IMG/VR virus record: IMGVR_UViG_3300033998_000206
Span: 1 to 29,415 of that record
Length of the DNA: 29,415 nt
Direction: 5' to 3' (one strand)
From: a virus
The notes under the pieces were generated by a model, which saw only the letters and a list, made by a program, of their open reading frames with translations, did no database searches and was not told where the DNA came from. Every line of letters starts with the position of its first letter. Position 1 is the first letter of the stretch. A program made the position numbers and the translations under genes. Below, piece by piece: positions 16,378 to 26,331 of the stretch.

Positions 16378-16908
16378 CTAGACCACCTTCTTTGCCAAAC
16401 AATAGACAAGATAAGGTTCCGATTCCTCCGGGCCAAACCGCTTCGCCCATTCTTTGCCTGCATAGCCCGTTTCGAGGACTTTCAGTCCGGCGTTTTCGTG
16501 GAGGATTGCCAACTCCTCTTTCGTGTAATCCAACTCGTCTTTCCACGAGGCGGTAGTCCTGGCCTTCGCATTTTTGTAGGCCACGCATCCCGTGTTCGGA
16601 ACGTAGGTAAGGACGTACTTCCTGCTTACTTCGGCCATCGCTTTGAGGATTTCCACGGCCTCAGCAGGAGAGTAATGTTCGATCAGGCCGGAACTGAAAA
16701 CGAGGTCATATTTCTTCTTCGGCTTAAACTCCCGGATGTCGGCTTTGATAACATCGTCCCTCTGCGGTTCAATGTCGATACCGTCCGCACCAACGGCGTC
16801 TTTTAGTTCGCCGGAGAAGCAACCTACTTCGAGAGCGGATTTCACGCCCAGCTTTTTGATGTAATCCTTGAATTCCTCAATGAAATGCGGACAGTTAAAG
16901 GACATCAT
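16378..16908 (-). CDS. Class I SAM-dependent methyltransferase
   Basis: 176 residues from the ATG at 16908, which overlaps the glycosyltransferase stop (TGATG) and has AAGGAGG spaced well upstream; an earlier in-frame start has no such site. Motif I is SALEVGCFSGEL (residues about 21 to 32), the acidic ribose-binding position is GIDIEP, and motif IV is YDLVFSSGLIEHY, as in methyltransferases of the Methyltransf_11/25 type. Length is near minimal, with a short C-terminal substrate region. The substrate is unknown. Tight coupling with the glycosyltransferase suggests both modify the same sugar or surface polymer. It is cargo inserted between terminase and portal. Confidence 0.85.
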   Translation of the reverse strand: MMSFNCPHFIEEFKDYIKKLGVKSALEVGCFSGELKDAVGADGIDIEPQRDDVIKADIREFKPKKKYDLVFSSGLIEHYSPAEAVEILKAMAEVSRKYVLTYVPNTGCVAYKNAKARTTASWKDELDYTKEELAILHENAGLKVLETGYAGKEWAKRFGPEESEPYLVYCLAKKVV

Positions 16909-18035
16909 CAGGCAAACCTCCTTATCAATTCTCGCCACTGCGCACGCCAGATTTGAATATTGAAACATTCTACGGCAATTTGCCGATTTCTTTCGCCGAA
17001 TTTGCGCCTTAAATCCTCATTTTCCGCTAAATATTGGATATAACCGGTCAAATCGTCGTGATTCGGGTCGTAGATAAGACCGTTATAGCCATCTATAATG
17101 GCATCGCCCAAACCGCCAACCGGCGTTGTTATCACGGGCAACCCGCAGGCCATGCTTTCCAGCAGGCTCAAACTTAATCCTTCACTGGCACGTGTTGGGA
17201 CAACACTTATATCCGCACTCTGGTATATTTCCTCCATCCCGTCCATCGGCTTCCAGACGAAGCGGATATTCGGCGTCGTCTCGCCCCACAGCTTCACCTT
17301 TTCGTTAATCTGCTCATCGTGCGCCTGGCCCACGGCAAGGAATTCGTATTGCGGTAACTCCCGGCTGGCTTTGATAAACTCGTTACACCCGCGCAAAACC
17401 GTCAGCCTGCGGGGATAAAGCACCCTGATACCGTCCCACGTCTTGGGAGCGGGCTTGAATTTTTCGGTGTCCACGAAGTTGTAGATAACCCGGATCTTCT
17501 GCTCATCGCCTGGAGATATGGCCTGGATAACCTTCCGCACGTTTGAGTCCACGGCCACACACACATCCGGCGCGGTGAAGCCGTAGAGCTGCCGGCGGAA
17601 GAATTCTTTGCGGTCGATCTCGTTCAATGTGTTGATTAAATGGTACTCATAATCCCAAAATATTCCGTGGCTGATTGAAATAGCCGGCAGAACAACATGA
17701 GGCCAGCAACAGAACGTTGCAAAGTATATACGCAGGTCGAAGTAAGTTCCCGCTATCTCGTTGAAAATCATGTTTAAACGCGGATTTGTCGAATACGACC
17801 AGTCGCCTTTCACCGGCAGGCAGATAATCGGAATGCCACGGTAATTCTTTGTTATTTCGCCCTTGGATTCCGGCGCGTCAATAGCTTGGTAAACAGCTAC
17901 TTCGTGGCCGTCTTCTTGGAGAAGGTGGCAAAGATTAACAAGATATTTTTCAGCGCCTCCATAGATGATGCGGTCTTGGCCGTGGTACTCGGCTACTTGA
18001 TGATAGAAGAATGAGGTTAAAATAGCAATACGCAT
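16908..18035 (-). CDS. Glycosyltransferase family 4 (GT-B fold)
   Basis: 375 residues; ATG at 18035 with a perfect AAGGAGG site. The N-terminal Rossmann half starts MRIAILTSFFYHQV and has the IYGGAEKYLVNLCHLLQEDGHEVAVYQ block of GT4 enzymes. The C-terminal nucleotide-sugar half has IRVLYPRRLTVLRGCNEFIKA, and the EX7E motif lies in SEGLSLSLLESMACGLPVITTPVGGLGD. The donor and acceptor cannot be read from sequence. Being in the late operon, it probably acts on the host surface or on virions late in infection (inference). It is bounded upstream by two hairpins and coupled downstream to a methyltransferase. Confidence 0.92.
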   Translation of the reverse strand: MRIAILTSFFYHQVAEYHGQDRIIYGGAEKYLVNLCHLLQEDGHEVAVYQAIDAPESKGEITKNYRGIPIICLPVKGDWSYSTNPRLNMIFNEIAGTYFDLRIYFATFCCWPHVVLPAISISHGIFWDYEYHLINTLNEIDRKEFFRRQLYGFTAPDVCVAVDSNVRKVIQAISPGDEQKIRVIYNFVDTEKFKPAPKTWDGIRVLYPRRLTVLRGCNEFIKASRELPQYEFLAVGQAHDEQINEKVKLWGETTPNIRFVWKPMDGMEEIYQSADISVVPTRASEGLSLSLLESMACGLPVITTPVGGLGDAIIDGYNGLIYDPNHDDLTGYIQYLAENEDLRRKFGERNRQIAVECFNIQIWRAQWRELIRRFA

Positions 18036-24256: not shown

Positions 24257-24334
24257 CCCGCCGGCAGCCGGGGCGGGTAAGAAATACCGGCTGCCCGGAA
24301 AACTTCCCGACCGCCGCCGGGGGAAATGCGGCGG
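24257..24334 (+). other. Leader with competing helices before the 109-residue gene
   Basis: CCCGCC (24257) can pair with GGCGGG (24272). GGCAGCCGG (24263..24271) can pair over nine bases with CCGGCTGCC (24287..24295). The two pairings interlock, so they are either alternatives or a pseudoknot. AAACTTCCC follows (24300), then CCGCCGC (24311) with GCGGCGG (24328) and GAGGAGG. The last part aligns with the leader at 24691..24754, with the stem bases changed on both sides. Confidence 0.65.
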
Positions 24335-24349
24335 AGAGAGGAGGATGCA

Positions 24350-24679
24350 ATGTTTAGAGATTTAGTTTATACTGTGTGGGATGCTGGATGCGAACTCCTA
24401 TTTGCAGGATCCGGCTCCGTTCTTACGGAGCAGGATCTGGATGATGAGTTGCTGTTCCTAGGTGCAGAAGATGTTACCGTTGCTCTCTACCCCAGTCCTG
24501 AACCGCTTGTAGAGGACGGAGAAGTTCACCCTGCCTTTCGAGGCGGTAACTGCAACTGGCGGTGCAGTTTAACCGACCTGACCGACCAGGAGGATACTGC
24601 CCTCGTTTACGGCCAGGTTGAGACCGATGATGTTATTCTTTACATCGTCGGTCAACCCGGAGTAAAGTTGCCCTTTTAA
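24350..24679 (+). CDS. Hypothetical acidic protein (109 aa)
   Basis: ATG at 24350 after GAGAGAGGAGGATGCA. It is strongly acidic (EQDLDDELLFLGAEDV, EPLVEDGEVH, DLTDQEDTALVYGQ) with alternating hydrophobic residues, suggesting strands. Strong acidity and small size are common among phage anti-defence and DNA-mimic proteins, but that is only a resemblance. No motif is recognised. Confidence 0.7.
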   Translation: MFRDLVYTVWDAGCELLFAGSGSVLTEQDLDDELLFLGAEDVTVALYPSPEPLVEDGEVHPAFRGGNCNWRCSLTDLTDQEDTALVYGQVETDDVILYIVGQPGVKLPF

Positions 24680-24690
24680 CTACCCGCCCC

Positions 24691-24754
24691 AGCGCCGAGG
24701 CGTTATATCGGCGCTACCAGAAACTTCCCCAGCCCGGCGGGGGTAAGGCCGGGC
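24691..24754 (+). other. Double hairpin in the leader of the zinc-ribbon gene
   Basis: AGCGCCGA (24691) pairs perfectly with TCGGCGCT (24708) around nine bases. CAGAAACTTCCCC follows, then GCCCGGC (24732) pairs with GCCGGGC (24748), and GGAAAGGAGG leads to the start codon. It is the clearest example of the leader family. Confidence 0.7.
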
Positions 24755-24768
24755 GGAAAGGAGGAAAA

Positions 24769-25080
24769 ATGAAGTGTTTCAAGTGCGGGCGTACCATCGC
24801 CCGCTTGGAGGACGCTTACGTTAGCTGCCGCCACACTGCTGGCGGTGTGCAAGATATTTTCCTGTGCGCCGAGTGCGGAGCTCCCCGTACCTGCGCCCGG
24901 TGCGGCGCGGAACTGGGAGAGGACTGGCGGCATGGCTGGGGGCCGGGAGAGTACCTGTGCCCCAGCTGCGAAGGTGTCTACCTCGCCGCTTTCCGGGCGG
25001 CGGGGGAAGCAGACGCCCAGCGTGGTAGAGAGGAACGCCCCATGAAGTTCTTCCGCCGCCCGCCGCTGTATGCGCTATAG
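24769..25080 (+). CDS. Zinc-ribbon protein (103 aa)
   Basis: ATG after AAAGGAGGAAAA. Cys pairs are CFKC (residues 3 to 6), a Cys near 20, CAEC (about 33 to 36), CARC (about 42 to 45), and CPSC (about 64 to 67). This implies two or three metal sites in a rubredoxin/zinc-ribbon arrangement. The C-terminal tail is basic (KFFRRPPLYAL). It probably binds nucleic acid or a protein partner; nothing more specific can be read. Spacing to the next gene is 17 bases. Confidence 0.75.
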   Translation: MKCFKCGRTIARLEDAYVSCRHTAGGVQDIFLCAECGAPRTCARCGAELGEDWRHGWGPGEYLCPSCEGVYLAAFRAAGEADAQRGREERPMKFFRRPPLYAL

Positions 25081-25097
25081 AAAGGAGGTATACATAT

Positions 25098-25418
25098 ATG
25101 TTTGCCGCCGTTCTTAGTACCACCGTTTTGCCTGTGGACGGTGTCTACCGGGTGGAAACCCTGCCGCCTGGTCAGATTCCGTCCCTGGCCGGGGTGCCGC
25201 ACTACATCGGGCACCCCGACACAAAGGCTATCGTGGAGGGCCTGGGCGCCGTCCCGGCCCCGACAAAGTTGTTCCCCGGCCTTGCCGTGGGGGAGCAGGC
25301 CATCTGTTTCCCGATAGCACAGGGGAAGAGCACGCGGGCGGTGGACGGCTTCACCAGTCCGCACCAGAATGTTAGCCTGGACGATCTCCAGATCCGGGTT
25401 ATTACCCGGCTGGAGTAG
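25098..25418 (+). CDS. DUF1874 / AcrIII-1-like protein, candidate viral ring nuclease
   Basis: 106 residues; ATG with AAAGGAGGTATACATAT, one of the best ribosome sites here. The N-terminal strand LSTTVLPVDGVYRV matches the LTNTSILTTFG-type start of DUF1874 proteins (YddF, STIV B116, SIRV gp29). His39 lies in YIGHPDTKAIVEGLG, matching the IGHxST motif whose His is catalytic in AcrIII-1. Arg80-x2-Asp83-Gly84 stands where the family has RxxEG (an Arg and a Glu that act on the ligand). The C-terminal strand IRVITRL also fits. AcrIII-1 enzymes destroy cyclic tetra-adenylate and so block type III CRISPR defence. The resemblance is from motifs by eye, the flanks differ, and Asp replaces Glu, so activity is a hypothesis. 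Confidence 0.6.
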   Translation: MFAAVLSTTVLPVDGVYRVETLPPGQIPSLAGVPHYIGHPDTKAIVEGLGAVPAPTKLFPGLAVGEQAICFPIAQGKSTRAVDGFTSPHQNVSLDDLQIRVITRLE

Positions 25419-25474
25419 ACTGCCGCCCAGGGCACGGCGTAAAACTGCCCAATTTTTGCGAAGGAGGTTTAACC

Positions 25475-25729
25475 ATGCCCAAAATCGACCGCCAAAAACC
25501 CAATGAATCCCTTGTTGCCGAAATTTCCGCCATCCTCCCTGTTATCCATGCGGCCAAGACAAAGAAAGCGCAGGAGTATCCCAAGCTGAAGGAACTCCTG
25601 CGCCCGAATGGTTACAAGCCTTTCGACATCTTCGCCACATACAATTACCTCACCGGTAGCGCTGCTGGCGATTGGGAGGCCAGCGTTAAACTGGCGGCGT
25701 ACGTGGCCCAAAGGAGGAAGGCGGGATGA
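25475..25729 (+). CDS. Small basic protein coupled to the integrase
   Basis: 84 residues; ATG after GAAGGAGGTTTAACC. It ends in an ATGA overlap with the recombinase, so the two are probably made together. It is helical and basic (AAKTKKAQEYPKLKELLRP, then KLAAYVAQRRKAG). It could be a directionality factor or a DNA-binding helper for the recombinase, by context only. Confidence 0.65.
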   Translation: MPKIDRQKPNESLVAEISAILPVIHAAKTKKAQEYPKLKELLRPNGYKPFDIFATYNYLTGSAAGDWEASVKLAAYVAQRRKAG

Positions 25730-26331
25730 TGAGGAAGAAACATGCCTTGCCTAAAATTATTAGCCGGGAAGCTGCCTCCCGGCTTTTGTCCCGGCTGAAG
25801 ACGGATAATCCGATCGGCCTGCGGAACCGAGTAGCTCTCCAGTTATGCTACCGGGCGGGCCTGCGGATCAGCGAAGTCTGTAACCTTTCCCTTGCGGATG
25901 TGGACCTGCGGGAAGGCTACGTCTACGTCCAGCAGGGAAAAGGAAAAAAGGATCGAGTTGTGCCTTTAGACAAAGAAACAGCCGAATTGTGCCAAAGGTG
26001 GCTTGCAATTCGGCCTGAAAGCAGCTCTGATTATTTTATCACAACCCTGGCCGGCGGTAAAGTTTCCGACCGCTACCTCCGGGAAGTCTGCTACAGGCTT
26101 TCCCGGATAACGGGGGTTTATATCACCGACAACCACAAGAAGAAGCCCGTTCACCCGCACATCCTCCGGCACTCCTTCGCCACGGAGCGTCTGGAGGACG
26201 GGTTCAGCCTGGTGGAAGTGCAGGCTTTATTGGGGCACAGCGATATTTCTACCACCAGCGTCTACCTGCACGTGCGGCCTACGGTGCTTAGAGAGAAAAT
26301 GAGGGGTTTAGCGCCCGTGGGAGGTGCTTAG
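25726..26331 (+). CDS. Minimal tyrosine recombinase (catalytic domain only)
   Basis: 201 residues, ATG at 25726 (a second ATG follows). The full catalytic set is present: Arg47 in YRAGLRISE, Lys74 in the GKGKKDR beta-hairpin, His145-x2-Arg148 in HILRHSFA, His171 in LLGHSDIST, and Tyr180 in TSVYLHV. The N-terminal SAM-like core-binding domain found in XerC/XerD and most phage integrases is missing; only ~35 residues precede box I. It is thus a short integrase of about two thirds normal length, yet the active site is intact. It may integrate the phage, or move or invert the island. It is the last enzyme gene of the plus-strand operon. Confidence 0.92.
   Translation: MMRKKHALPKIISREAASRLLSRLKTDNPIGLRNRVALQLCYRAGLRISEVCNLSLADVDLREGYVYVQQGKGKKDRVVPLDKETAELCQRWLAIRPESSSDYFITTLAGGKVSDRYLREVCYRLSRITGVYITDNHKKKPVHPHILRHSFATERLEDGFSLVEVQALLGHSDISTTSVYLHVRPTVLREKMRGLAPVGGA

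Follow-up and report, generated by a model that had tools for sequence, protein, structure and literature searches.

A remote DUF1874-fold protein family carried by phages as a candidate type III anti-CRISPR ring nuclease

A short gene in the window (the whole stretch of viral DNA analysed here, 29,415 nucleotides long) probably encodes a member of a new and remote subfamily within the DUF1874 ring nucleases that would act as a type III anti-CRISPR by cleaving cyclic tetra-adenylate (cA4). The first-pass annotation had put it forward as a candidate AcrIII-1-like protein, and this reading is now supported by fold matches, by a second family member, by a match to the AcrIII-1 of phage THSA-485A and by a profile alignment. 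That the protein has the DUF1874 fold and a family relationship to AcrIII-1 and Crn2 is almost certain. We file it as a variant subfamily rather than as an ordinary member of PF08960, because it does not reach the cut-off of that family and two of its pocket residues differ.

A conserved gene in a phage accessory cluster

The open reading frame proposed in the first-pass annotation was recovered with exactly its coordinates (Table 1), and it is a genuine gene, more than a chance reading frame, with a good ribosome-binding site and under strong purifying selection: among close copies dN/dS is 0.12-0.17 and the differences are biased to third codon positions. At least 15 homologues, 48-93% identical, occur in unrelated phages and prophages, on viral contigs, in two cultured phages and in three cellular genomes. 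A single-protein search gave nine viral contig loci (48-93% identity), and an alignment-based search brought in L019-L021 and L026, the last of these a broken copy. The phage collection holds copies in Moorella phage MTATph1 (66.7% identity; its annotation says no more than 'hypothetical protein') and Parageobacillus phage JGon-2020a (64.5%), and the cellular copies belong to UBA4795 (L012), Ca. Syntrophopropionicum (L013) and genome G276 (L032). The carrier phages have known or inferred hosts in Bacillota, and the family alignment comprises 13 sequences.

Table 1. Coordinates of the candidate gene, its signals and motifs, and its neighbours in the window
Feature	Position	Strand	Basis
Accessory cluster of short ORFs upstream of the integrase	24326-25729	+	Same orientation; no confident family matches
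Short ORF in accessory cluster	24326-24679	+	
Short ORF in accessory cluster, zinc-ribbon-like	24769-25080	+	
Shine-Dalgarno AAAGGAGGT	25081-25089	+	8 nt upstream of ATG; read from sequence
AcrIII-1-like gene, predicted DUF1874 fold, 106 aa	25098-25418	+	ORF, homologues, AF2 model and fold matches, DUF1874 profile match, dN/dS
His35 codon	25200-25202	+	Invariant and specific to the family; aligned with residue 43 of SIRV2 gp37 (Ser in most DUF1874 proteins)
IGHPDT motif, residues 37-42	25206-25223	+	IGH invariant in the family; aligned to His47 in 30/30 resamplings
His39 codon (predicted catalytic histidine)	25212-25214	+	Counterpart of His47 in AcrIII-1 and of His495 in Crn2
RAVDG motif, residues 80-84	25335-25349	+	Arg80 aligns with Arg85, Asp83 with Glu88; Arg invariant, Asp position D/E/N/Q
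Short ORF in accessory cluster, after the candidate gene	25475-25729	+	
Tyrosine recombinase (integrase)	25726-26331	+	PF00589, 1.6e-39; 92% identity to the integrase that neighbours the homologue in prophage locus L012

The gene lies in a plus-strand run of short genes that ends with the tyrosine integrase and is flanked on one side by a structural module (terminase, capsid, tape measure) and on the other by early genes (sigma-70 region 4, RusA), both on the minus strand. Calling this a phage cargo island, as had been done from the sequence, is fair, because the short genes around it lack confident family matches. In the prophage locus of UBA4795, the sigma-like gene is 81% identical to that of the window, in addition to the integrase. 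Outside that locus, the only neighbours in common with the window are, in L014, a recombinase with 32% identity and, in L023, a RusA-like protein with 29% identity, and the two complete carrier phages differ greatly in size (55 kb and 177 kb). Since the carriers have almost no neighbours in common, it seems that the gene travels independently between phages of widely different size, and such non-conservation of neighbours is as expected for a mobile accessory gene. The phage search gave no near-identity relative of the first 20 kb of the window.

Some loci show peculiarities of their own. In the broken copy (L026:3876-4250) a deletion has removed the middle part, IGH motif included, and there is a frame shift, which makes it either a pseudogene or an assembly fault. 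At L015:5581-6318 the homologue is in frame with an upstream gene, with no intervening stop (a 245-aa ORF), and its upstream portion is similar to a stand-alone 174-aa ORF of L014 (7962-8486), so the arrangement is a possible fusion or translational coupling. A match on a Jannaschia plasmid (E 0.1) falls in a stretch without an annotated gene and was taken as chance. In the window itself, the integrase has only 201 aa and lacks an N-terminal core-binding domain, its sequence beginning within the catalytic domain; its start is overlapped by an 84-aa gene. The interval between the terminase and a portal-like gene (16378-18035, minus strand) is an unusual site for cargo: a group 1 glycosyltransferase (PF00534, 1.2e-25) is encoded there, together with a 196-aa protein that has no Pfam match and looks like a SAM methyltransferase.

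Fold and remote homology

Ordinary sequence searches do not reveal the relationship. The window protein has no match in Pfam, PHROGs, NCBIfam, PADLOC or, with phmmer, the sequences of the PDB; it does not reach the curated cut-off of PF08960, a model that only 1/13 family members matches (E 0.15). A single-sequence DUF1874 query against viral contigs returned nothing, and the other strand of that locus holds only stops. The FeoB matches obtained by hmmsearch of the PDB with the family profile are chance only. Aligned by hhalign with 14 DUF1874 proteins headed by SIRV2 gp37, the family gives a probability of 97.3, an E-value of 2.4e-11 and a score of 64.2, whereas the controls, in which the columns were shuffled (249 shuffles) or the alignment was reversed, score 23.2 at most. 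At the level of sequence profiles, the relationship to the DUF1874/AcrIII-1/Crn2 superfamily is thus statistically supported, at 8-18% identity between the window protein and DUF1874 structures.

The predicted structure leads to the same place. The AlphaFold2 model built from the 13-sequence family alignment has a pLDDT of 88.4 and a pTM of 0.79, the loop that bears Asp83 being its least confident region (pLDDT about 69). Comparison of a predicted structure with AcrIII-1 and STIV B116 had been suggested as a check, and the only confident matches are proteins of exactly this kind: AcrIII-1 (6scf), AFV3-109 (2j6b), SIRV1 ORF114 (2x4i), Csx1-Crn2 (8y7f/g) and STIV B116 (2j85). In the Foldseek search of the PDB, ranks 1-16 are all AcrIII-1/Crn2/DUF1874 chains, with probabilities of 0.89-1.00, and rank 17 is an unrelated protein at 0.05. 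VIA-align gives Z-scores of 8.9 for 8y7g (cA4-bound Crn2), 8.6 for 6scf (SIRV1 AcrIII-1) and 8.2 for 2j6b over 96-97 residues, against 2.7 for the best unrelated row. In the BFVD viral-structure library the best match is I3VYU1, the AcrIII-1 of phage THSA-485A. A second AlphaFold2 prediction, made from a 48%-identical member, is poorer (pLDDT 74.9) and again has the same fold family on top; the two predictions are not fully independent, because alignment rows are common to both.

The closest known proteins are those of AcrIII-1 (SIRV1 gp29, 6scf/2x4i; SIRV2 gp37; THSA-485A I3VYU1), classified as PF08960, DUF1874/STIV_B116-like. The window family has in common with them the fold, the length, the histidine of IGHxxT, the arginine of RxxEG and the hydrophobic strand pattern, as well as phage carriage in a viral accessory-gene setting: like AcrIII-1, it is found in viruses outside cas operons, in phage genomes and prophages with unrelated neighbours. 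Unlike AcrIII-1, it lies below PF08960 detection, at about 10% identity. The best structural match is Crn2, including the Csx1-Crn2 fusion of Marinitoga (8y7f, 8y7g), with its equivalent catalytic His495; Crn2 is, however, a host CRISPR component, whereas the window family resides in phages and prophages and not in cas operons. A more distant structural link to the AcrIII-1 fold is that of Csx16 (PF09652), a cA4-specific ring nuclease (PMC12409355). The PADLOC model of Csx16 gives one weak match, to 1/13 family members (E 0.033), and the failure to find Csx16 in 398 genomes of the phylum is uninformative, since no control genome matched either.

The predicted active site

The IGHPDT (His39) and RAVDG (Arg80, Asp83) motifs are present as first described, and hhalign recovered the register guessed for them against AcrIII-1 without its being imposed. 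The pairs are His39-His47, Thr42-Thr50, Lys57-Arg66, Glu66-Asp75, Arg80-Arg85, Asp83-Glu88 and Gly84-Gly89; this mapping is constant across five settings, and the pairing of Arg80, like that of His39, came back in 30/30 resamplings. Both residues are invariant in the 13-sequence alignment, and the catalytic histidine is invariant in every intact homologue. In SIRV1 gp29 His47 is catalytic, and the inactive H47A variant retains cA4 binding (PMC7213978); His495 of Crn2 is its counterpart (PMC7293037). The aspartate in IGHPDT is not alarming, because the AcrIII-1 of phage THSA-485A, a proven enzyme, reads IGHADT and so likewise carries Asp in place of S49. That protein abolishes cA4-mediated immunity in vivo and served there as the positive control (PMC7371418).

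Other parts of the pocket diverge. An Asp-for-Glu change had been singled out in the first-pass annotation, which is right for Asp83 of the window protein and does not extend to the family, where the Glu88 equivalent can be D, E, N or Q among the aligned sequences and L032 has K; being so variable, the position is not diagnostic. The Asn-Arg pair that includes Arg66 is absent and replaced by Thr56-Lys57 in the window protein, the lysine being nearly invariant in the family. In contrast to AcrIII-1, the family has HYIGHP (for SAIGH), Lys57 (for Arg66) and Asp83 or a variable residue (for Glu88), a four-residue insertion before Arg80 that is visible as a gap in the profile alignment with DUF1874, the extra invariants Arg100 and Arg104 besides the family-specific His35, and a near-invariant PHQ, which is missing from the Moorella phage copy.

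Two further DUF1874 genes deserve mention. A protein of genome G218 (C257:2186-2464, L045) that scores above the Pfam cut-off has Tyr in the position of the catalytic His (IGYPAT), and its RxxEG reads RVTDPG, making it a candidate non-catalytic binder. In Vibrio phage Rostov 7 (MK575466.1, L046), the annotated CDS of a YddF/DUF1874 gene starts about 50 codons too late.

Type III CRISPR in the carriers and the proposed function

Type III CRISPR loci are present in 3/3 carrier cellular genomes (G001, G002 and G276), which is suggestive only and statistically weak, because RAMP genes occur in 67/199 sampled genomes of the phylum (34%). G001 has a III-B locus with Cmr1/3/4/6, Cas10, a CARF-PDDEXK effector and another CARF effector, and it bears its copy of the gene in the prophage whose integrase is 92% identical to that of the window. 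G276 has both a III-A-type and a III-B-type Cas10. The GGDD palm motif of Cas10 is intact in G001, in G276 (two) and in G002, where matches to PF22335 below the cut-off were left out of the Cas10 count. Because the integrase is common to the window and the UBA4795 prophage, a relative of UBA4795 is the likely host of the window phage. A search of the carrier genomes for spacer-like matches to the first 10 kb of the window yielded nothing useful, so that spacers lend the reading no evidence.

From the fold, the conserved His and Arg and the carriers' type III systems we infer the following scheme. The gene product would be a ring nuclease with the DUF1874 (AcrIII-1/Crn2) fold, small and probably a dimer. 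In the course of infection it would bind the cA4 that a type III CRISPR system produces through its Cas10 cyclase. His39 would serve as the general acid and Arg80 would act at the phosphate in the cleavage of the ring, and the resulting linear products would be unable to switch on CARF effectors.

Several points speak against a cA4 ring nuclease: no family model matches the window protein itself, its identity to DUF1874 structures is 8-18%, Glu88 is not conserved, the loop with Asp83 is modelled with the least confidence, and changes are seen both in the Asn-Arg pair and at Ser43. The altered pocket, with His35, Lys57, a relaxed Glu88 site and invariant residues of its own (Arg100 and Arg104) beyond the common His and Arg, could alternatively belong to a protein of the same fold and anti-defence role whose signal is not cA4 but cA3, cA5, cA6 or a cyclic oligonucleotide of the CBASS type, and ring nucleases of broad specificity do exist, such as Crn4 (PMC12830947). 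We nevertheless consider this improbable, as the characterised proteins of the DUF1874 fold in the literature consulted cleave cA4 and G001 has CARF effectors of the type activated by cyclic oligoadenylates. Formulated as a separate DUF1874-fold lineage, with its pocket rebuilt (His35, Lys for Arg66, a dispensable Glu88, Arg100/Arg104) around a different cyclic oligonucleotide, the idea is likewise rather unlikely; if true, it would mean that phages counter signalling systems beyond the reach of AcrIII-1.

The Glu88 equivalents N, Q or K (the last in L032) of some members would also suit a sponge of DUF1874 fold that binds and sequesters the messenger uncut, and phage sponge proteins are common (PMC12043709). 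A sponge would not need the catalytic histidine, however, and its invariance in every intact homologue makes this very unlikely. There is a slimmer chance still that this DUF1874-fold protein does another job, for instance in regulating phage development or binding DNA in the course of it, as earlier annotations of homologues in archaeal viruses suggest. The label 'DNA binding protein' is attached to several DUF1874 records; against this, the nuclease pocket residues are conserved and the gene sits in unrelated phages without a conserved partner.

Cleavage of cA4 by a new subfamily therefore remains our preferred reading, and it bears on how widespread this kind of counter-defence is taken to be. 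AcrIII-1 was found in only 36/28,114 phage genomes in a 2025 survey (PMC12409355). Because the window subfamily escapes every model tried, such counts probably overlook some of the means by which Bacillota phages counter type III systems. The natural substitutions at Glu88 and Arg66, both conserved in AcrIII-1, also make it possible to test directly which residues are required and what sets substrate specificity.
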